This document shows positions 245 to 34,675 of a DNA stretch of 36,818 bases, one piece after another (position 1 is the stretch's first letter; every line of letters starts with the position of its first letter). Origin of the DNA: Oehlia diaphana. Taxonomy: Eukaryota; Glomeromycota; Glomeromycetes; Glomerales; Glomeraceae. The notes beneath the pieces were generated by a model. The model was given only the letters and a program-made list of their open reading frames with translations, was not told the origin of the DNA and did no database searches. The stretch lies in the NCBI GenBank assembly GCA_003833135.1, contig QZLH01000151.1, forward strand, positions 8,642-45,459, read 5' to 3'. Both the position numbers and the translations under genes were made by a program.

Positions 245-1214
245 TTTTTTACTGGGTTAATGCAGTTAATAATTACAATGTTTTCAATATTATCCCATTC
301 TTCTCTAATTAAATTTAAAAAAATATCTTTTGAGATTTTTTTCTTTTGCGCCACCATACTCTTAACCTTTTTCTCAACATTTTTCTTTAAAATAGCCCAA
401 ACATTCTCAATAGGATTGAGGTTAGGGCTATAGAAAGGCCAAGCAAGGACTTAACCTGGAAGGTGAGTTTCCAAGTCACCTTAAACATCATAGGAGGTAT
501 GTTTTGGGTTATTATCTTGCTGAAAGACTTATCGGTTACCATGCATTGCACTTGCATTATCATATAAATGTTCATTCAAAATTTGACGGTATAAATAATG
601 ATCCAAATTTTCAGTGAACATGTGCATGCCAATTTTTTCTTTAACGCTTATTGCATCCCAAACATGAACTTTAAATAGATGTTTTACCATTGGAGCAATG
701 GGTTTTCTGTCACGTGACTATGCAGAAAGGGTATTACAAAACATTTGAAGTGTAGTTTCATTAGAAAATACCACTTTTTTCCAATTATAATTCATGTGAT
801 CACGGGCCCAAGACAATCGTTTTTCTTTTACTTTCTCTGTCAAAAGAGGAATCTTTCTTAGACGAACAGATGCAAAACCAAGATTTTTTAGCTCACAACA
901 AATGACCCGTTCACTAACCTCAAGTTCTGGATTTTTTTCTTCAAGCTGTGCCTTCATTTTACTTGCTGTAGTGAAATGATTGTACTTAACGATCCTTCCA
1001 ATTTGGCGGCATTTTTTAGGAGTCAATTTTCATGGTTGATCAGACTGATGACCTATGGTAATTTTTCTGGTTTTTTTTAATGAACTAACATAACGTTCAC
1101 AGGAGTGCAAGGGAACACCTGTTCTTTGTGAAATTTCTCTTGCATTTCAGATTTTTTGCTGCCAAAGAAGGTTAACAGCATTTCAGTTTTTTTTGAGGGT
1201 AGTTAACGCCATTT
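245..1214 (-). pseudogene. Tc1/mariner-family transposase relic
   Basis: Read on the minus strand, this is a Tc1-like DDE transposase broken by stops and at least one frameshift. Visible in order are an N-terminal helix-turn-helix stretch containing AREISQRTGVP (about 1120-1150), a second helical DNA-binding part (TPKKCRQIGRIV, about 985-1026), the first catalytic block VVFSNETT (about 755-777), the second block QQDNNPKHTSYDV (about 484-523), and the third block SPNLNPIENVW (about 388-420). Stop codons interrupt the reading at 1147-1149, 1030-1032, 718-720, 529-531, 481-483 and 451-453. The first catalytic aspartate of the family (FSDE) is Asn here (codon at 760-762), so the copy would be inactive even if read through. 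The longest surviving open piece is 718-1026. Family assignment is firm; element ends and terminal inverted repeats were not found. Confidence 0.85.
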
Positions 1215-1548
1215 TGAACAGAAAAATATGAGAATGTTTATTATTTTCTAGAACTTTTTTTTGTTTGTTTTTTAAATATTAATCCTAAAGAACAATTTGG
1301 AAAAAATAGAAAGTTCTAGATTAGAAAATGAGCGCATCACAGCCTAAAAAAGAAACAGTACTCGCACTGCCATTACTTTCGCTGGTGACTGTATTATCTT
1401 ATATAAATTATTAAATAACAAAAATAGTAATGATAATTAACCGATACATGCAATAAAATTATTGAACTCTCCACTCTCCATTTTTTTAATATCAAAATAA
1501 CTTTTCTAACATTAAACTTTAGCTATTTACAATTTTTTTTTTTTAAAT

Positions 1549-3993
1549 ATGAGTAATAATCAAGGTGAAAATATTGATCTGAATAAAAAAAAATGTGGCT
1601 GTCTAAAAACTGATGTTTGGGAATATTTTAAAGAAGGACCAAAAAATAGAGGTCACTGTTCAGCAGAGTGCAATTTTTGTGGTTGGAAACAACAAATAGG
1701 TCAACTTATTGAAATGCAAGGACATATAGCTATTAATTGTTTAAAAGCACCATACAAAATTAAAACAATTTTTTTAGAAAAAGTAAAAAATAATGGACAT
1801 CTTGAATATAAAAATAAAAATATTAAAGTTGATCTTAATCAGTCAAAAATAAATGAAAAATTTGAATCAACTAAAATTGATCAAGCTAAAGTTGAGATGG
1901 TGAATCGTGCTATTGTAAAATTTTTTGCCTGCTGCGGCATTTCCTTTTACATCATTGAAAATCCATTTTTTGTTATCTTCTTCATACTTTATGTCCTGGA
2001 TATATTCCGCCATGTAGATAAACACTTTCAAATGATATGCTTAATGTAAAGATTTCCCATGTAATTACTGAAATAAATCTTAAATTAAGTAATGAGAAAT
2101 ACTTTACATTGGGTATATATTAAATAATTATATTATATATTTATAATAAATTAACAATTTAATAATTTATATTAATTTATTTTTTTAATCAAGGAGTGGA
2201 TGGTTGGACAAATGCTTGTGGACAGTCTCTTTATGCATTTATTCTCATTACTAAAGAAAGAAAGGAATATGTTCATTCAGTTCAAAACCTGTCAAATTAT
2301 TCATACATTGGACGTTTTTTGGCAGATAAAATGATTGAAATAATTGAGAATGTTGGTTATACCAAATTTTGTAGAATAGTATCAGATAATGCATCAGCAA
2401 TAGTTTTGGCAAAAAAACTAATTAATGATCGATATGAATTTATAATGCCAATTCGATGCATTGCACATCATATTAATTTGCTAACTAATGATATTTGTAA
2501 ATTAGAATTCGCTCAATCAATATTAAAAAAATGTATGAAATTAGTTTATTTTTTCAAAGCATCTCACCAGGCAAATGCAACATAATAATAGAAAATATGG
2601 TTAAAGGAGGAGAGCTGAAGGAATATTGTCAAACGAGATGGATGACTGCTTTCGATTGTATTTCTTCAGTTTTAAAGTGTGAAGATGCTTTAAAAAATGT
2701 CAGTTTCAATTATTTTATTATTTAAATTTTTAATTGAAATTTATCTAATAATTTATTTTTTAATTTTAGATCGTAATTAATAATCCAGATTATCTAAAAA
2801 AAATATTAAAGATATTATTACAAGATGTTATTTTATGAAAGTTGAAGAATTACAATTTGTTCTTAAACCAATAAAGAAGGCTGTTAAATATTTAGAAATG
2901 AAAAATGCAACATTGGCAGATTGTTTTTTTCAATTAATAAAGTTATCATATTCAATTAAAAACTTATCAGAATCACACACTATTTTTCAACAACAATGTA
3001 TTGAAGCATTTAATAAAAGATGGAAACAGTTTGATTTCAGATTATACATGTTAGCTTATTTACTTCATTCGTTGTATCGTGATATGTATGTAATTATATA
3101 TTTACATATTAATTTTTAAAATCCTAATAATTTAATTAATATTGTAGGTAAAGGATTTAGAAATCAAGTTTGCCGTAAAGTAGTATATTGGGCAATTGAT
3201 AATATATGGACAAAAATGGGCAGTGGAGAAAATTTTAGTTCAAAATTGATTGGACAAATTACATCCTTTCGTAATAAGCTCCCTCCTTATGATGATGAAT
3301 TTATTCCTATAAAATATTATACAGTCGAACGTTGGTGGAGTTATGTAGAACAAGATGAAGGAGAAGAAAATTTTATCCAACAATTTGCGTTAAAAATATT
3401 TTCAATAATCCTGCATAATGCAGGATGTGAAAGAATATTTTCTGTAATGGGGTGGTATATGAACAAAAGAAGAATCAGGTAATAATTGTTTTTTATTAAT
3501 TAATTTTTATTTAGATCATAACTTAAATTTTCTTTAATATTAATTGTTAGATTAAGTGTAGATCGCTTACAAAATCTTACGAAACTTCACACATATTACG
3601 TTTCAAATGCAAAAATGAATTAAAATTTACTGCTAAAGATTTGAATGTTACAAATGATGAAAAGTTTTATCAATTAGTACAAAACGGTATATATTAAAAT
3701 ATTAATGATGAAATTGAAGAGGAAGAGTTGGAAATTGAAGATGACGATAATGATAGTGATCTTGTTGATATAGAAGAGTACGAAAGATTTAATTCTGGAA
3801 ATGATAATGTTTTACAAAGTGAAAATTATTTCAATTTTGTATCAAAAGAATTGGTATCATAGAATTACTAAAACTTCAAGAACCGCAAGTAATTATTGAA
3901 GACATAAATATTGATAATGTCATTGATCATGGCAATAAGAATTTTGATTTGGATAAACTATTAGACGAACAGTTTAATGCAGAAAATGAATAA
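1549..3993 (+). pseudogene. hAT-family transposase relic with spliceosomal introns
   Basis: This is a hAT transposase reading through several exons. The N-terminus has a BED-type zinc finger (DVWEYFK, then CNFC and a distal H-x4-C pattern, about 1612-1740). The RNase-H-like core follows with KFFACCGISF and ENPFF (about 1918-1970), the first catalytic Asp in VDGWTN (from 2196), the second in IVSDNAS (about 2377-2397) and CIAHHINLL. The C-terminal dimerisation block contains WWSYVEQ and AGCERIFS (3331-3447). In-frame GT-AG introns are placed at 2113-2193, 2699-2769 and 3479-3550; a fourth near 3086-3147 has no clean phase. Damage includes a frameshift near 1975, a stop at 2019-2021, a frameshift near 2578, frameshifts in A-runs near 2796 and 3616, and another near 3855. 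The acidic tail ends near 3993. Terminal inverted repeats and 8-bp target duplications were not found. Confidence 0.88.
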
Positions 3994-10001: not shown

Positions 10002-12391
10002 ATGCCTCAGCAATTGGAAGTAACAGAATATGATGTTATTATACTTGGTACTGGTTTTGTCGAATCAATCCTTGCAGGGTATGAATTTCCTTGACTATTA
10101 TAGTATTTTGTAGCGACTTAACGTGAAATTAAATAAACGTGACAGGGCTTTAGCGAGAATCGGTAAATCTGTGTTGCATATGGATACAAATGAATATTAT
10201 GGAGGCAGCTGGACTTCGTTTAATTTCCAAGAATTGTTAGATTGGGCTCAGCTTTTACAAGGTTTCCCATATTATTTAGTGACAATTTGTAAGAGACTTT
10301 TATATGTAAATTTTTTGTTAATAATTTGAGAAATTGGTTCTAATATATAGGTCATGTAGAGGAATCGAGCGGAAACAGCCAAGAAAGTAAAATTAATTTT
10401 AAACTTCATATCCTTTAAATTGAATCAAGAATAAATTATAAGAATATCATTATTATCAACAGATTTCGAAGGAAAAAAAGCTTTACCAATCAATTTTTCC
10501 AAGGCTCGCCGTCAAGCCTATTCAACAATTGAATATGAGATATACGGTATTTTAAAGCAGACAAATAGTACCGAAGAAAATGAAGAATATCTTCATAAAG
10601 ATGAACAAGATACATCAGAAGAAACAATACGTCATGTTTCTACAAGTCTGTCTAATTTCGAAAGAGAAACTCTGGCAAAATTACTCAAAGAATCAAAGCA
10701 ATATAATTTGGATATAGCGCCAAAAATAATGCCTTGTCGTGGTGAATTAATCGAATTATTAATAAGTTCCGGTGTGGGTAGATATTTGGAATTTAAAGCT
10801 TTGGATAAGACTTACATATATTCTGATCAAGATACTTTTGACAAGGTCTACTAACATTAATTTAAATTTACAAACTCAACTGATATCATAAAGTATTTAC
10901 CTATTTTTTTATCAATTATAGGTCCCATGTTCAAAGGAAGATGTATTTACAAGTCAAACAGTAACTTTGATTGACAAAAGAAAATTGATGAGATTTTTAA
11001 CATTTGCTTTAGATTTTACTAATTCTCCAGAAACGTTTGAAGGTATTATAATTATTCTTTCAAATCTTTATTATGTCGATGAGTAAGTTTTGATAATTAC
11101 AATTATCAATAGGTTATGAAGAAAAACCTTATGAAAAATTTCTCAAAGAAAAATTCCAAATTGATGGCAAATTGTTGTCAGCAGTTTTATACGCGATCAC
11201 TTTAATTCAAACAAAAGCAAATGATGGTTTGTATTTAAATTAGTTTATACCTCATAAACTATTACATAAGATTTTTATATCATTGTATTTCTATAATATA
11301 AAGTAAATACTATACAAGGCTTGACATATACACAAAGATATTTAAAATCTCTTGGCCGTTATGGTAATGCTGCTTTTTTGGTAGCCTTATATGGTGCTGG
11401 GAGTGAAATTTCCCAAGGCTTCTGTAGGTATGCAATGTTATTAATTTACATATGTTTTTTTATTACGACTTGAATTTTTGGACAATGTTTAAATTCTTCT
11501 ATAATATGTAGGATTTCAGCTGTATTTGGTGGTATATATATGTTAAATCATTCCATAAAGCATCTCTTAATTGACAAGAGTTCAAATAATTTCACTGGAC
11601 TTATTGATGTGAATGGCCAACAACTTTCATCCACATACTTAATTACATCTATTGATTACATACCTGAAAAGTTATTACAGGAAAATGAAGAATGGTGCGT
11701 CACAAATATATAAATTTTCATATTTAATCAATTTTAAAGGATTAATCAATAAACAAACATACTAGTGAGCAAATTTCTCGTGCGATTGTGATCATAGATC
11801 GATATATTCACGAGGAAGGTGATGCTTCTCTCACCATATTTCCACCAGATTTCGTGGGTAATGAATATCCGATAAGAGTTCTCCAGTTTTCAGAGGGGAC
11901 ACGATCTTGTCCCGAAGATAAATGTTAGTTAATGCAACTATAAGGTATTTAATATTTATTTGACACTACGAGGTTATTAATCATCTTATATTTCTTTCAT
12001 TTTATAGATGTTTTGTACATGTCCACAAAAGCTTCTCGCAAAAGTGCCAAAGAAGATTTGTACAAGGCATTAGAGAAATTAGTTAATATTTCAAATGATG
12101 GTAAGTTAATTATTCAAGCTTCAAAATCCTAGTTATTGTATTGACTTGGTATTTCATATCTCTTCAGATGCTTCATTATCATCTCCTTTGTTTGCTTTAT
12201 TTTACCGGCATAAATTTCGTGATGCTACGCTTTCTTCCTTACTACCCGATAATATAATTGTTACTAACGATTCTGATTCATCGTTGGATTTCGAAACGGC
12301 AACAATTCAAGCAAAGCAACTTTTTGAAAAGATGTGTCCAAATGAGGAATTTTTACCTGCCGTGCCGGACCCTGATGATGATGAATTATAA
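10002..12391 (+). CDS. MRS6: Rab escort protein (REP/Mrs6), Rab geranylgeranyl transferase component A
   Basis: REP presents newly made Rab GTPases to geranylgeranyl transferase II and delivers the prenylated Rab to membranes. Eleven exons: 10002-10078, 10146-10288, 10351-10386, 10463-10845, 10922-11042, 11113-11226, 11304-11427, 11512-11694, 11766-11923, 12008-12100 and 12168-12391, giving 551 residues. The GDI-fold dinucleotide-binding start is YDVIILGTGFVESILAGALA, followed by HMDTNEYYGGSWTSFNF. The NW/SW-S-F pattern after YYGG is typical of REP rather than GDI, as is the acidic insert of about residues 95-150. Later blocks include LTYTQRYLKSLGRYGN, AVFGGIYMLNH and the C-terminal CPNEEFLPAVPDP seen in REPs. 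All introns are short GT-AG introns with consistent phase. Confidence 0.93.
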
Positions 12392-23199: not shown

Positions 23200-24764
23200 A
23201 TGTCTCACGTAAGTTTTGAATCTTACACTTTACTGCGCGTTTCTTGAATTTCGTAAGAGTTAGTGATCGTTTTTTGGATGGGTTGCTATTTAGTTGTGTC
23301 TTTAAAAAAGTTAGATAATATAAACATAACCTCCCATATATACTATGCATTTGTTTTCTTGATATTATATCATTACACTTTCTAAACACGGTCATTCTTC
23401 ATATTTTTTCTTTAGGAACGCGAGAACCAGGTATTTGACCGCGTAGAGCTTTAATTTTAATTATTACTATTATTATTTGTTTGTATAATTATTTCAAGGA
23501 AAATGTGACAAAAAATTGTTTGATTTTTACTTGTTGTTGACCTCCAACAAAAAGGTTTATATGGCTAAGCTCGCTGAGCAAGCCGAACGTTATGATGGTA
23601 ATATTTTATTTTTATTTTTGAATTTGAATATTTTTTACTTTTTTAATTTAAATTTATCCTAAAACCTACGCTTGCACAATTGAATCCGATTGATCAGAAA
23701 TGGTATCTTATATGAAGGTATTTATCCAAGAAATATATTATTTTTAATTTATTTATTTTTTTTTTTTTTAAAAAAAAAAAAATTCATTTGACTAAATATT
23801 ATTCAATGCTTGCTTAAACTATAGGATGTTGCAAAGGTATTTTTCAAATTTTACAGAACAATACATAATTATTTTTTTATCATTACTTATTATTATTCGA
23901 ATCATAATTTATGAATTATTGTACAAATTGTCATCGATGATATATTATTACTAGCTTGGAGTAGAACTTACTGTAGAAGAACGCAATCTCCTCTCAGTCG
24001 CTTATAAGAATGTAATTGGTGCCCGTCGAGCGTCTTGGAGAATTATTTCATCTATCGAACAAAAGGAAGAAAATAAGGGTAATGAAACCCAAGTTCAGAA
24101 GATCAAAGCTTATCGTCAAAAAGTTGAAACCGAACTTTCAGAAGTATGCTCGGATATCCTTGCCGTATTGGACGAGCATTTGATTCCATCTGCTGAAGCC
24201 GGTGAATCTAAAGTCTTTTATTATAAAATGTAAGTGAATTTATAACAATTTATAAAAAATTAATTTTGTTGTTTTAATCTAATGTTGTATTACAGGAAAG
24301 GTGATTATCACCGATATCTCGCTGAATTTGCTTCGGGTGAAAGACGAAAAGAAGCCGCCACCCAGGCTCACGAAGCTTATAAACACGCAACAGATATCGC
24401 CCAAACTGACCTTGCTCCAACTCATCCTATTCGTCTTGGACTTGCATTAAACTTTTCAGTTTTCTACTACGAGATTCTCAATTCACCTGATCGCGCTTGT
24501 CATCTTGCAAAACAGGCATTTGATGATGCTATTGCTGAACTCGATACTTTAAGTGAAGAATCGTATAAAGATAGCACATTAATTATGCAACTACTTAGAG
24601 ACAACTTGACCCTTTGGACTTCAGACTTGCAAGATGGTGAGTTTGTTTTTATAAATAATAAATGTGAAAAACTGTGTAGTCTAAATATTTTTTTCGAATT
24701 TACAGCAGAGGGTGAAAAACCGGAAGAAGCTAAACAAGAAGTTGAAGCTGAAGAATCTAAGTAG
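23200..24764 (+). CDS. BMH1: 14-3-3 protein
   Basis: 14-3-3 proteins are cytosolic dimers that bind phosphoserine/phosphothreonine motifs in many signalling partners. Eight exons: 23200-23208, 23416-23430, 23555-23597, 23698-23717, 23825-23836, 23955-24229, 24296-24636 and 24706-24764, giving 257 residues. The first five exons are tiny (9, 15, 43, 20 and 12 nt) and together encode [34 protein letters not shown]-type sequence, exactly the family start. [38 protein letters not shown] and [20 protein letters not shown] are diagnostic, with the phosphopeptide-binding Lys/Arg/Tyr residues in place. [13 protein letters not shown] ends the conserved core and an acidic tail follows. The last intron (24637-24705) is 69 nt and has no in-frame stop. 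Confidence 0.96.
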
Positions 24765-25488: not shown

Positions 25489-26438
25489 ATGGTACGTGTT
25501 TACTTCGAGATTATATAAAAGCGCGTCAGATTTTATCATGTTGTAACAGCTTTTATTACGTTTGAAGGAATCACGAGCTGGTTTATTGTCAGGAGCCGCT
25601 CCATTTGCTGGTACTGAAACTTTAGAACCAGATATAGAAGCTACTCAAACAAATGCAAGGGGTAGCAGAACACCTCAAAACACACAAAGCATTTGGGAAC
25701 AATCCAGGTAAAGTTTACATTATACAAATGATTAATAGATTATTATATACATATTTTATAGCTTAGCATTTAAACCTTAAATTGGTTAAGCGAAATAATA
25801 TAAGTGTAAATTTATTAATTCTTTACTTATATCTGTTTCAATATTTAGTCATCCAGTAGCCTTAGTATTCCATTTATTATTTCGTACGGGGGCTATAGCT
25901 ATATACCTTTTTGGTAAATTGTTTACCGAACGTAACACATTCATCTTCATCATTTGTGTTTTGTTATTGTCATTTGATTTTTGGACTGTTAAAAATGTGA
26001 CTGGAAGGTTGCTGGTAGGATTAAGATGGTGGAATGATATTCAACCTGATGGAACAAATGCCTGGGTATTTGAAAGTAGAGACGTGAGTTTCCTTTTATA
26101 ATCCCAATATTTAAGTATATCACAATATTGAACTAACTTCATGTTCTTTTTAGCCTTCAAGACCTGTAAACCCCATGGATTCACGTATATTTTGGATTTC
26201 ACTTTATGCTACATTAGTAATTTGGCTATTTTTAGCATTTTTTACGATATTTGAACCAACATGGCTTATAATTGTAGCTATTGCTATAACCTTAAATATG
26301 GCTAATGTTGTCGGCTACACCCAGTGCGATAAAGATGCTAAAAAGAAATGGGCTACGGGCTTTGCAGCTAGAGCAGCTACAAATCCAAATATGTTTGGAA
26401 GGTTGTTTTCAGCCGGAATTGGAAGATTTTTTGGTTAA
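25489..26438 (+). CDS. TVP23: TVP23-family Golgi membrane protein, copy 1
   Basis: TVP23 (animal TVP23A/B/C, FAM18) is a late-Golgi/endosome multi-pass membrane protein linked to vesicle trafficking. Four exons: 25489-25491, 25568-25707, 25849-26083 and 26154-26438, giving 220 residues. Exon 1 consists of the ATG alone, followed at once by donor GTACGTG; the same layout is seen in copy 2. The first 48 residues are polar; then come four hydrophobic segments: [55 protein letters not shown] and LIIVAIAITLNMANVVGY. Family signatures are [34 protein letters not shown] and YTQCDKDAKKKW. It is a tandem paralogue of the gene starting at 27359. Confidence 0.92.
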
Positions 26439-27358: not shown

Positions 27359-28365
<1,007 letters not shown>

Positions 28366-30527: not shown

Positions 30528-33398
30528 TGTCTTTTGGCCGGTCTTTGGAGTTATTGGCTTGCGGATGGTCTCATGCGCCGATGGCTCTTTTATTATGAAG
30601 TCAGCAGCGCGATAATCCGTTTAATTTCATTACAAGCTATTAATTGGGTCATTACAGCTTTTGTAATAACACATTATGGTCCAGATGAGCCAATTTGGGC
30701 TTGGATGATTTGTAGCGTTGTTTTAGCCGTATGCAACACAATTCAATGGCTCTTTACTTCAACCACGAAATATCAGAAAGCTGATGAACCTGAAAAAATA
30801 AGACAATTGATAGTGAGAGAAATATTTCGTTATATAGTTATACCTCTTGCAATATTTACATTTATTACGATGATTTTTCTTCTTGAGCAGCAATCAAGAA
30901 TCCGTTATAATTCCAATCTTGGACTTACAACTTACAAATTGAACACTAATTTGAATCTTAATGATATTCGTTCAGATTCAAACGTCAAAGTAATAATGAT
31001 CGTATTATCATCATGGACGGAAAGTGGATATAAGAAAAGACAAACATTCCGTGATACTTCTGCAACATTATTTCCTCAAAATTCAAAGAAAATTTCAATA
31101 GCTTATCGGTTTATTCTAGGAGATGCTCCATCATCTAAAGCACAAATGAACATGGGACAAAAACTTCTCGATGAATCAAAAAGATATGGTGACATAATTA
31201 TTGTACCTACGTCTGATTCACAAGATAATTTAAGTCGTAAGGTTTATAAGGGATTTGAGTGGTCCAATAAATATGCCTTTGATTATATTGTGAAAGCAAA
31301 CGATGATATATTCGTACGTATGGACATTTTATCTCACGAATTGGAAGAATTAGGTCCTGATAAAAAATATTATTGGAAAGGTCTTAGTTATTGGTATGTG
31401 TTATCAACTCTTTTTTATTGTTTAACCGATCGAAATTATCTATGTTCCAAGAATGTATTATTTATTTACTTACTTAGGAATATTCCGACTCGTAACGCAG
31501 AAATTAAAAATACAGCTGTTGGTTACAAACTTCCTATATTTCCACCATTTACAGCAGGAGCATTTTATATATTATCACGTGATATAATCTCTCTGCTTGT
31601 AACTGATACACCCCGTCTTTTTATAAAGAATGATGACCAAAATTTAGGTATATGGCTTTTTCCTTACAATATTAAGCCAATTCATGATCGACGTATTCAA
31701 CAAACTGATGTTTGCGAAGATGATATGATTGCCAAACGTTTTGGTGAAGATTTTGAAGGTGGTCAAATTATGAAAGATATGTATGAGAATGTTATAAATC
31801 ACAGAAGGATGTGTGAAGGATTTAAACAACGTTTTTGTGCATTGTGTTATCCCTGTTGGGGACGAGAAAATCACTGGAAAGATTTGAACTTTGATTGCGA
31901 TGATGTAAAAGGCATAACTTTACTTAATCAGACAACTTTGATCATTGATAATCCTAAATACCCCGTTGCCGTATTTGATGATCCCATGAATGTCACAATG
32001 GGAAGTGAGGAAGATAGGTGGATCATCCCAGGTCTTCTTTCACAGCATTCTTCAGTATATTCTCGGACAAATCAGTGGTATTTATTACATTGGGTATGTT
32101 GGACAACAGATCCATCTACTTTCCAAGAACGTCATTACAAAGCTATAGAGCTTATTTGGGTTCATACTCCTAAAGCTATTGTTTTCGTCTTAACAACAAC
32201 TTTACCACAAGATTTTTTCTCGGAATATCAAAATCAAGGTTATATAATTTATGTGATTAAATTTAATAAGGAATTGATGTTAGAACGACAATGGTTTCTT
32301 GGTCAAAATTCCAAAAACTGGCTTAATGATTGGAATAAGTTGGAAAATAATCAGTTCTTTTCTTATCATTTAACTGATTATATGCGATATTTGTTATTAT
32401 ATAAATACGGTGGTGTTTATATGGATATTGATGCTCTTTGGGTACGAGCTCCACCAGATACAAATATTGAATTCATTGGGTCGGATTCTTCGAGTATTTC
32501 TTCAGATTTTGAATGGACGTTAGATAAAGATGGCACATATCTTGTACCCGGAGTTATGAGGTTTAAAAAAGGTTGGTCTATGTTTAGAGAGATAATGGAA
32601 CAAGCTTTATCTCCTAGTTATTCTCCATCGTGTTTCAACTGTATTGGTTCTCGAGCAATAACAGTTTATGTTAAAGAATATCGAGAAGTTCTTGAAAGAC
32701 ATGGACTCATAATTTTACCTAATCATATTCTTTGCCCACGAAATTATATTCATATTGACAAACTTTTGAGATCTGACCCAATTGCTCAAAAAGAATTTCA
32801 AAAAATAGGAGAATCATCCTGGAATATACATTTGTTCGGAAGATCGACTAACTATCAATTTATTGAAAATGGAAGTGTAATTAGTCTATTATTAAAGACA
32901 TTTTCTTTAGATGTTCCTCACGCATCGGCTCCATTAATAGCAGGCGGGAAACCAAATTTTAGTAATCCATCATATCCATTCGTCTTGGAAGGACCAAAGA
33001 AATATCGATTTGTGTCCTCAGCTACAGTAAAAGAAGCGGATCAATATACAGGATCTTTAAATGGGCAATTTCAAGGTTTAAATTTAATATTTATACGTGG
33101 TGGACCTCCAATAGTAAATCAAACAACGATAAAAGCGAAGGCCTTAAATGGAAAATTATCTTTTAATTTACATGGTGGAGATTGGAGTGAAAGTTCTCTT
33201 ACAATTAATAATTCAACGAAAAAGGACGTTAATGCTTTACTAAATACTCTTACATATCGTCCAAATGATCACTTACGGAGAACGGAAGAAAAAGATGATA
33301 TCAGTTTAGAAGTTACATATGGTGGCCACCAAGCTAAATTAATAATTGAAATTGAAATTCCTATTTGGCGAGATAACGTTGAACCCTCTTTAAAATAA
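30528..33398 (+). CDS. Dual glycosyltransferase: GT31-like + GT32/A4GALT-like + cadherin-like module
   Basis: A single exon encodes more than 950 residues (numbered here from 30534). Residues 1-115 hold about three membrane segments, for example LISLQAINWVITAFVIT and FRYIVIPLAIFTFITMIF. Residues about 140-410 resemble GT31 beta-1,3-galactosyl/GlcNAc transferases: KVIMIVLSSW, YRFILGDA, KVYKGFEWSNKYAFDYIVKA and a DD metal-site motif in NDDIFVRMD (residues 257-258), with an FPPFTAGAFYILSRD block. Residues about 510-800 resemble the GT32/A4GALT (Gly_transf_sug) fold: YHLTDYMRYLLLYKYGGVYM with DxD at residues 631 and 633 (DIDALW), and a Gb3-synthase-like end (LPNHILCPRNYIH, IHLFGRST). Residues about 805-950 look like a cadherin/VCBS-like beta-sandwich ending NALLNTLTYRPN...ISLEVTYGG. 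The protein probably sits in Golgi or ER membranes with both catalytic domains luminal. Substrates are unknown. The start codon is upstream and unresolved. Confidence 0.85.
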   Translation, partial: CLLAGLWSYWLADGLMRRWLFYYEVSSAIIRLISLQAINWVITAFVITHYGPDEPIWAWMICSVVLAVCNTIQWLFTSTTKYQKADEPEKIRQLIVREIFRYIVIPLAIFTFITMIFLLEQQSRIRYNSNLGLTTYKLNTNLNLNDIRSDSNVKVIMIVLSSWTESGYKKRQTFRDTSATLFPQNSKKISIAYRFILGDAPSSKAQMNMGQKLLDESKRYGDIIIVPTSDSQDNLSRKVYKGFEWSNKYAFDYIVKANDDIFVRMDILSHELEELGPDKKYYWKGLSYWYVLSTLFYCLTDRNYLCSKNVLFIYLLRNIPTRNAEIKNTAVGYKLPIFPPFTAGAFYILSRDIISLLVTDTPRLFIKNDDQNLGIWLFPYNIKPIHDRRIQQTDVCEDDMIAKRFGEDFEGGQIMKDMYENVINHRRMCEGFKQRFCALCYPCWGRENHWKDLNFDCDDVKGITLLNQTTLIIDNPKYPVAVFDDPMNVTMGSEEDRWIIPGLLSQHSSVYSRTNQWYLLHWVCWTTDPSTFQERHYKAIELIWVHTPKAIVFVLTTTLPQDFFSEYQNQGYIIYVIKFNKELMLERQWFLGQNSKNWLNDWNKLENNQFFSYHLTDYMRYLLLYKYGGVYMDIDALWVRAPPDTNIEFIGSDSSSISSDFEWTLDKDGTYLVPGVMRFKKGWSMFREIMEQALSPSYSPSCFNCIGSRAITVYVKEYREVLERHGLIILPNHILCPRNYIHIDKLLRSDPIAQKEFQKIGESSWNIHLFGRSTNYQFIENGSVISLLLKTFSLDVPHASAPLIAGGKPNFSNPSYPFVLEGPKKYRFVSSATVKEADQYTGSLNGQFQGLNLIFIRGGPPIVNQTTIKAKALNGKLSFNLHGGDWSESSLTINNSTKKDVNALLNTLTYRPNDHLRRTEEKDDISLEVTYGGHQAKLIIEIEIPIWRDNVEPSLK

Positions 33399-33749: not shown

Positions 33750-34615
33750 TTATTTAGTTTGAGAACTTGAAGCTCCTTGAGCTCCTTGAGAAATCTTATA
33801 TTGCATAATATCAATTGTTGCTAAAAATAGGAAAGGTATGAATAAATATAATACACATAAAAAGTTGAATATTAATGATGATGATCTTACATCTTAAATT
33901 GCTTTGTTTAGTTAAAATTGTTTGTCGTAAAGTTTCAACATTCTTTTTTACATACTCGACTTTATCAGAATAAAAATTTATAGCATCGGCCGAATTCTTT
34001 TTAAAGTAATAATATAGTTAATATGTTATTATAAATTAAATTAAGTTAAATCTAACAATAGAGATGAAGACAACATAATAACCTTTTCAACATAATAGCC
34101 TGTTCCAACATCTACCATTACTTTATCAGTATCAACCAATTCTCCTGGTACATAAAGGTATTTGTTTCGTTAAAGAGAAAATAAATATTTTATCAAACGA
34201 AAAAAAAAATGAAATTTTTTAATTATAAAAATAAAAAGGATATCGATTGTGTTAATGGAACAAGAAGAATATCTTTTCCTATAAAATAAAAGAAAAATTC
34301 GAAGATTGATAATGAAATTGATTTTGAAAAAATATTCATTAAATTGTCTTACCTTCTTTAATAGTTTTTACACTATCTATACAATCTTGAAAACGAGTTT
34401 GAGCTTGTTTAAGTTTTTCATACGAAGCTGTCAAATGAGCTACTTCCTAGCAAAAGCATTAAATTAAAACGCTAAAATACGAAACCAAAAAAAACAATTA
34501 GAATTATATGATCTTCTGTTACCTCTTCTAATTGTTTCTTAATTTCAACTAATTGAGTTATATCTAAGTCACTTAACTCTATAGTTGGTTGTTTAGCTGA
34601 AGTTGAGGCCGACAT
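33750..34615 (-). CDS. PFDN5: Prefoldin subunit 5
   Basis: Prefoldin 5 (yeast Gim5) is an alpha-type subunit of the hexameric co-chaperone that passes nascent actin and tubulin to CCT. Six exons (minus strand): 34615-34523, 34446-34353, 34278-34244, 34157-34083, 33996-33891 and 33820-33750. From the ATG at 34615 this gives 157 residues, the usual size; an in-frame ATG at 34675 would add 20 basic residues (MGKFRPDKKPFKFSTIEENN) not expected in the family. Conserved parts are [15 protein letters not shown], coiled coil [56 protein letters not shown] and a second coiled coil. The junction TQS|LYVPGEL is interrupted by an AT-AC intron with U12-type signals (34158-34243); all other introns are GT-AG. 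Confidence 0.95.
34158..34243 (-). other. AT-AC intron with U12-type (minor spliceosome) signals
   Basis: On the minus strand the intron starts ATATCCTTTTT directly after the TCG codon (34246-34244) and ends ACAAATAC directly before CTTTATGTACC. The 5' end is an exact match to the U12-type consensus RTATCCTTT. CTCTTTAAC near the 3' end fits the U12 branch site TTCCTTRAC at seven of nine positions, and its A lies 12 nt before the 3' splice site, inside the narrow U12 range. The intron is 86 nt and in phase 0. No GT-AG alternative keeps the conserved LTQS-LYVPGEL junction, because the reading frame hits TAA inside the intron and no GT follows TCG. Confidence 0.85.
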
Positions 34616-34675
34616 ATTATTTTCTTCTATAGTTGAGAACTTGAACGGTTTTTTATCAGGTCTGAATTTTCCCAT

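Follow-up and report, generated by a model that had tools for sequence, protein, structure and literature searches.

The PFDN5 gene and its introns

The window analysed here, a stretch of 36,818 nucleotides with a G+C content of 27.6% from the genome assembly of Oehlia diaphana (contig QZLH01000151.1), contains a gene in which one intron appears to begin with AT and to end with AC. This raises the question of whether the gene carries a genuine U12-type intron that is removed by the minor spliceosome, or whether another splice pattern, the major spliceosome or a defective gene copy accounts for the unusual ends. According to our gene model, which was derived from the sequence, the gene for prefoldin subunit 5 (PFDN5) occupies the minus strand between 34675 and 33750 and has six exons:

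34523..34675, minus strand: exon 1, with the start ATG at 34675 as in the protein P0001 and an alternative ATG at 34615
34353..34446, minus strand: exon 2
34244..34278, minus strand: exon 3, 35 nt, missing from the annotated protein P0003
34083..34157, minus strand: exon 4, beginning with LYVPGEL, where the Prefoldin profile matches
33891..33996, minus strand: exon 5
33750..33820, minus strand: exon 6 with the stop codon

The product comprises 157 or 177 aa depending on which of the two possible ATGs is used, and the 157-aa form served as query for the Pfam and structure-chain searches. The Pfam family Prefoldin matched the spliced protein with 98.2 bits (cut-off 23.2), and two chains of known structure under the name Prefoldin subunit 5, both of which we take to be human, matched with E-values of 3.9e-28 and 1.1e-25. 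Among 31 homologous clusters the closest is the R. irregularis protein P0001 (177 aa), which shares 175 of 177 residues (99%) with the spliced product. The source of the window is accordingly taken to be very close to R. irregularis, if not that species itself. In this model four introns are of the GT-AG type with a length of 70-86 nt, and the third is the AT-AC intron.

Sequence elements of the AT-AC intron

The following elements were located on the third intron:

34158..34243, minus strand: U12-type AT-AC intron of 86 nt in phase 0
34235..34243, minus strand: 5' splice site ATATCCTTT, which can pair with the 5' end of U11
34169..34177, minus strand: branch site CTCTTTAAC, in which the second A (34170) is the branch A and lies 12 nt before the 3' end
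34158..34159, minus strand: 3' terminal AC, exact to the reading frame

Branch sites of U12-type introns are usually found 10-15 nt from the 3' end, and U12-type AT-AC introns lack a polypyrimidine tract immediately upstream of their 3' splice site. No such tract is present here, the last 11 nt of the intron reading GAAACAAATAC. At the other end the third intron of PFDN5 starts with ATATCCTT, the 5' site expected of U12-type AT-AC introns. In comparison to the consensus sequences given in PMC10853781, ATATCCTTT matches RTATCCTT, the 5' consensus, in all 8 positions, and for the branch sequence TCTTTAAC the agreement with TCCTTRAY is 7 of 8.

Removal of 34243..34158 forms the junction LTQS/LYVPGEL in phase 0, and exactly this junction is carried by the public R. 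irregularis protein P0001. Retention of the 86 nt leads to a frameshift and stops. When an interval of 86 nt was slid along the sequence from -6 to +6, the ends AT and AC were obtained at offset 0 alone. The original prediction had placed an AT-AC intron with a U12-type 5' site, a 3' AC and a branch A 12 nt upstream at this position, exactly between the codons of LTQS/LYVPGEL; coordinates, elements and phase all proved to be exact.

We also searched the window for similar signals. The composite pattern ATATCCTTT-N(36-66)-CYTTAAC-N(7-14)-AC, which was composed after the intron had been seen, has a single match in the window, and 100 dinucleotide-preserving shuffles contained none. The 5' consensus RTATCCTT is found at three sites on both strands of the window, one of which is the PFDN5 intron. 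The site at 10408 (plus strand) was rejected because the motif YTTRAY is absent from the next 160 nt. A further one at 24154 (plus strand) has YTTRAY motifs 25 and 119 nt downstream and was nevertheless discarded, as it is located inside a coding frame that, recognised by eye, is presumably 14-3-3-like.

Minor spliceosome components in the genome

A genome that retains an intron of this kind should also contain the corresponding snRNAs, and the original prediction had stated that the lineage keeps U11, U12, U4atac and U6atac. We searched the genome (108.8 Mb, 1672 contigs) with the Rfam models and found all four above their gathering cut-offs: U11 with 71.9 bits (cut-off 39), U12 with 69.1 bits (cut-off 53), U6atac with 79.8 bits (cut-off 33) and U4atac with 55.7 bits, just 2.7 bits over its cut-off of 53. 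Each is represented by one match spanning the whole model, to be read as at least one per family, the best 39 to 48 first-look candidates having been scored for each. The Rfam scan of the window itself gave no match.

For the proteins, five Pfam models of minor-spliceosome components were run on the genome and two of them matched. Ubiquitin_4 matches two neighbouring exons, which jointly correspond to the U11/U12 25 kDa protein 8r7n_B (E 9.8e-15). The model zf-U11-48K has one match in the genome and gave a match in Sulfolobus acidocaldarius among the control genomes as well. The joined exons at this match resemble the U11/U12 48 kDa chain 8r7n_F with an E-value of 1.9e-9, the similarity being located mainly outside the zinc finger (32.4 bits vs 15.4 bits for the finger stretch). 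Weaker matches of the 48K candidate comprise Gametocyte-specific factor 1 (E 5.8e-5) and two retroelement protease/reverse-transcriptase chains (E about 0.002). The models PDCD7, CCDC84/CENATAC and zf-SCNM1 had no match in the genome, which does not show absence of these proteins. CENATAC has been reported to promote AT-AN minor introns in human cells (PMC8280824), and it is a side observation that these three models stay silent, with the same reservation, in a genome that carries an AT-AC minor intron.

The four snRNAs are thus kept as genes, as had been expected. A complete lack of minor-spliceosome snRNAs and proteins had been named beforehand as a refutation; instead, four snRNAs as well as U11/U12-48K and -25K were found.

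Predicted pairing of the snRNAs with the intron

The 5' end of U11 from this genome can form 10 consecutive base pairs with the 5' site of the intron, reaching one base past ATATCCTTT, with an energy of -9.5 kcal/mol. At the other four PFDN5 introns the corresponding values are between +0.5 and -1.6 kcal/mol, and 19 of 5000 random 11-mers from the window pair with U11 as well as the intron 5' site does. Likewise the pairing segment of U6atac reaches -7.3 kcal/mol at the AT-AC intron vs -0.8 kcal/mol or weaker at the other PFDN5 introns. The duplex between U12 and the branch site does not set this intron apart by its energy. An equal or better pairing is reached by 3332 of 5000 random 40-mers, and the AT-AC intron is also surpassed in its pairing with U12 by three of the four GT-AG introns of PFDN5. 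The assignment of the branch site therefore rests on its motif and spacing.

Following the established mechanism of minor splicing, from which the roles of the snRNAs are taken, U11 would pair with ATATCCTTT and U12 with the branch site of the PFDN5 intron. U6atac, brought together with U4atac, would then take over at the 5' site in the catalytic step. By this splice LTQS would be joined to LYVPGEL and the conserved core of PFDN5 restored. From the sequence elements and the snRNA genes we infer that the AT-AC intron is spliced in RNA.

PFDN5 annotation in arbuscular fungi and alternative explanations

Exon 3 and the beginning of exon 4 encode a segment, VPLTxSLYVP, that is unevenly represented in public proteins. 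The homologue set consists of 31 clusters, 12 of which carry names of genera that we take to belong to arbuscular fungi; the other 19 include unnamed clusters that might also come from fungi. Eight of the 12 arbuscular-fungus clusters are without the segment (P0003, P0005, P0007, P0008, P0009, P0012, P0013, P0014) and four contain it (P0001, P0002, P0004, P0006). None of the other 19 clusters is without it: 16 fit the strict motif, and P0017, P0028 and P0029 differ by substitutions only. For the shortened protein P0003 a corresponding GT-AG join could be found:

34145..34146, minus strand: AG acceptor 13 nt into exon 4, joined to the GT at 34352, by which exon 3 is skipped

This join results in an in-frame product of 161 aa that equals P0003 but for 3 substitutions. 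Since P0003 is reproduced in this way, a gene finder limited to GT-AG introns would be expected to leave out just this segment. The gap in six other genera suggests, on the strength of the protein sequences, that the intron there is not GT-AG either. The exon 3-skipped form may be an annotation error or a minor isoform, the latter being conceivable because the skip keeps the frame. A pattern search for DNA of orthologues gave no confirmed relatives among 63 matches in viral contigs and 426 matches in genome contigs.

The same join provides the most obvious alternative to minor splicing, namely that the major spliceosome connects the GT at 34352 with the AG at 34145 and the AT-AC intron is not used at all. 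The structure of the clusters P0003 (R. irregularis) and P0005 (R. clarus), the lack of the segment in six further arbuscular-fungus clusters and the open frame of the 161-aa product all agree with it. However, the skip removes a segment that is present in all 19 other homologous clusters and is kept by P0001, P0002, P0004 and P0006, and the complete set of U12 motifs would have to be a coincidence. For both R. irregularis and R. clarus a full model exists beside a skipped one, a pattern in keeping with an annotation error. We therefore regard exclusive skipping of exon 3 as very unlikely.

It is extremely improbable that the AT-AC intron is instead handled by the major spliceosome. U2-type AT-AC introns have a major-type 5' site, which counts against this explanation, as the 5' site found here, ATATCCTTT, is complementary to U11 and is accompanied by a branch motif of the U12 type at a distance of 12 nt from the intron end. 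In its favour, U2-type AT-AC introns are described in the literature (PMC7072748, PMC8280824). For a pseudogene or an assembly artefact no supporting point was found; the reading frame is undisturbed through all six exons and no more than 2 of 177 residues deviate from the public protein of R. irregularis, making this explanation practically negligible. Judged by the sequence evidence as a whole, PFDN5 almost certainly contains a genuine U12-type AT-AC intron that would be removed by the minor spliceosome.

The intron position in vertebrate PFDN5

Human PFDN5 has been reported, at the level of the whole gene, as a minor-intron gene (PMC8034651, PMC10853781), and PFDN5 is named among the RT-PCR primers of a minor-spliceosome study (PMC12332006). 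We compared the intron position with 220 proteins, assembled from the best 120 of 811 matches and the best 120 of 470 matches. The query of the latter set was a hypothetical join of PFDN5 pieces from solved chains, prompted by the 109-aa mammalian PFDN5 isoform, and favours skip forms. P0151, a mouse protein of 109 aa, matches the entire query with 100% and so supports this join. In 10 of the 220 listed proteins QLDQ is joined directly to MYVPG, corresponding to a skip of an exon that ends exactly at LTSS/; given the preference of the query for such forms this number is not a frequency. The vertebrate exon boundary LTSS/MYVPG is accordingly in phase 0 and, on protein evidence, located at the same codon junction as LTQS/ in our window.

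Insertions exactly at the LTSS/ junction are present in 5 of the 220 proteins. Four of them start with V-S-F and the fifth with L-S-S. The V-S-F proteins (P0036, P0043, P0044, P0157) belong to two Oreochromis, one Astatotilapia and one Desmodus; the three fish are closely related, so that these count as two lineages, not four. Of the remaining proteins 167 are uninterrupted and 38 are otherwise altered, among the latter P0195, which by eye is a skip form. Insertions of more than 3 residues were located at the junction in four cases and elsewhere in three (119 proteins). In phase 0 the sequence GTATCCTTY would encode V-S-F, and the 5' site of the vertebrate intron at LTSS/ is therefore probably GTATCCTTY, which would place it in the GT-AG subtype.

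Because the vertebrate exon boundary is found at the same junction and PFDN5 is reported as a minor-intron gene, one ancestral U12-type intron is the simplest reading. We infer homology between the intron described here and the presumed minor intron of vertebrate PFDN5 at this junction. It probably predates the split of animals and fungi, being AT-AC here and probably GT-AG in vertebrates. If there was one ancestral minor intron, ATATCCTT or GTATCCTT is to be expected at the LTxS/xYVPG junction across lineages. A more far-reaching version, in which an intron older than the split changed its subtype and competes in both lineages with an exon skip by the major spliceosome, resulting in a short in-frame PFDN5, appears unlikely to us. 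If it were true, the skipped models of arbuscular fungi would represent real isoforms instead of annotation errors.

Relation to known minor introns

For R. irregularis, Larue and Roy (NAR 2023, PMC10639083) report 205 minor introns and all four minor snRNAs. Their study further describes many minor-spliceosome proteins, naming orthologues of 20K, 65K, 35K and 25K, and a subset of the minor introns at positions common to other fungi, animals and plants. The minor introns of R. irregularis resemble the case presented here in their typical 5' splice site and branch sequences, and the four snRNAs are likewise common to both (PMC10639083). The phase 0 of the PFDN5 intron is the rarest phase among them according to the same report, in whose main text the word prefoldin is absent. 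U12-type introns described for Rhizopus oryzae and Phycomyces (PMC2846911) are likewise minor introns of fungi, with far fewer cases per genome (about 4 and about 20, as given in PMC10639083). The human PFDN5 minor intron lies in the same gene and the vertebrate boundary at the same codon junction; the vertebrate 5' site is probably of the GT-AG subtype, in contrast to AT-AC here. A full-text search of one collection of openly licensed PMC papers retrieved none containing both Glomeromycotina and minor spliceosome.

As minor introns and snRNAs have already been published for R. irregularis, the closest named species, the presence of such an intron in our window comes as little surprise. New are the gap in public PFDN5 annotation across arbuscular fungi and the position that is likely shared with vertebrates. 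The PFDN5 intron thereby offers one clean case in which minor splicing of an arbuscular mycorrhizal fungus can be checked, at a position apparently common to vertebrates. The annotation gap further implies that minor introns of arbuscular fungi may be under-counted in current annotations.

Other features of the window

The longest of the 31 open reading frames listed for the window is a single frame of 956 aa at 30528-33398 (plus strand). It is oriented convergently with PFDN5, the two ends being about 350 bases apart. Two adjoining and very similar pairs of reading frames at 25799-26438 and 27720-28365 (plus strand) have the look of a tandem gene duplication. In addition, reading frames at 718-1029 (minus strand) and 1516-3482 (plus strand) give the impression of being pieces of DNA transposons, judging from the sequence only.
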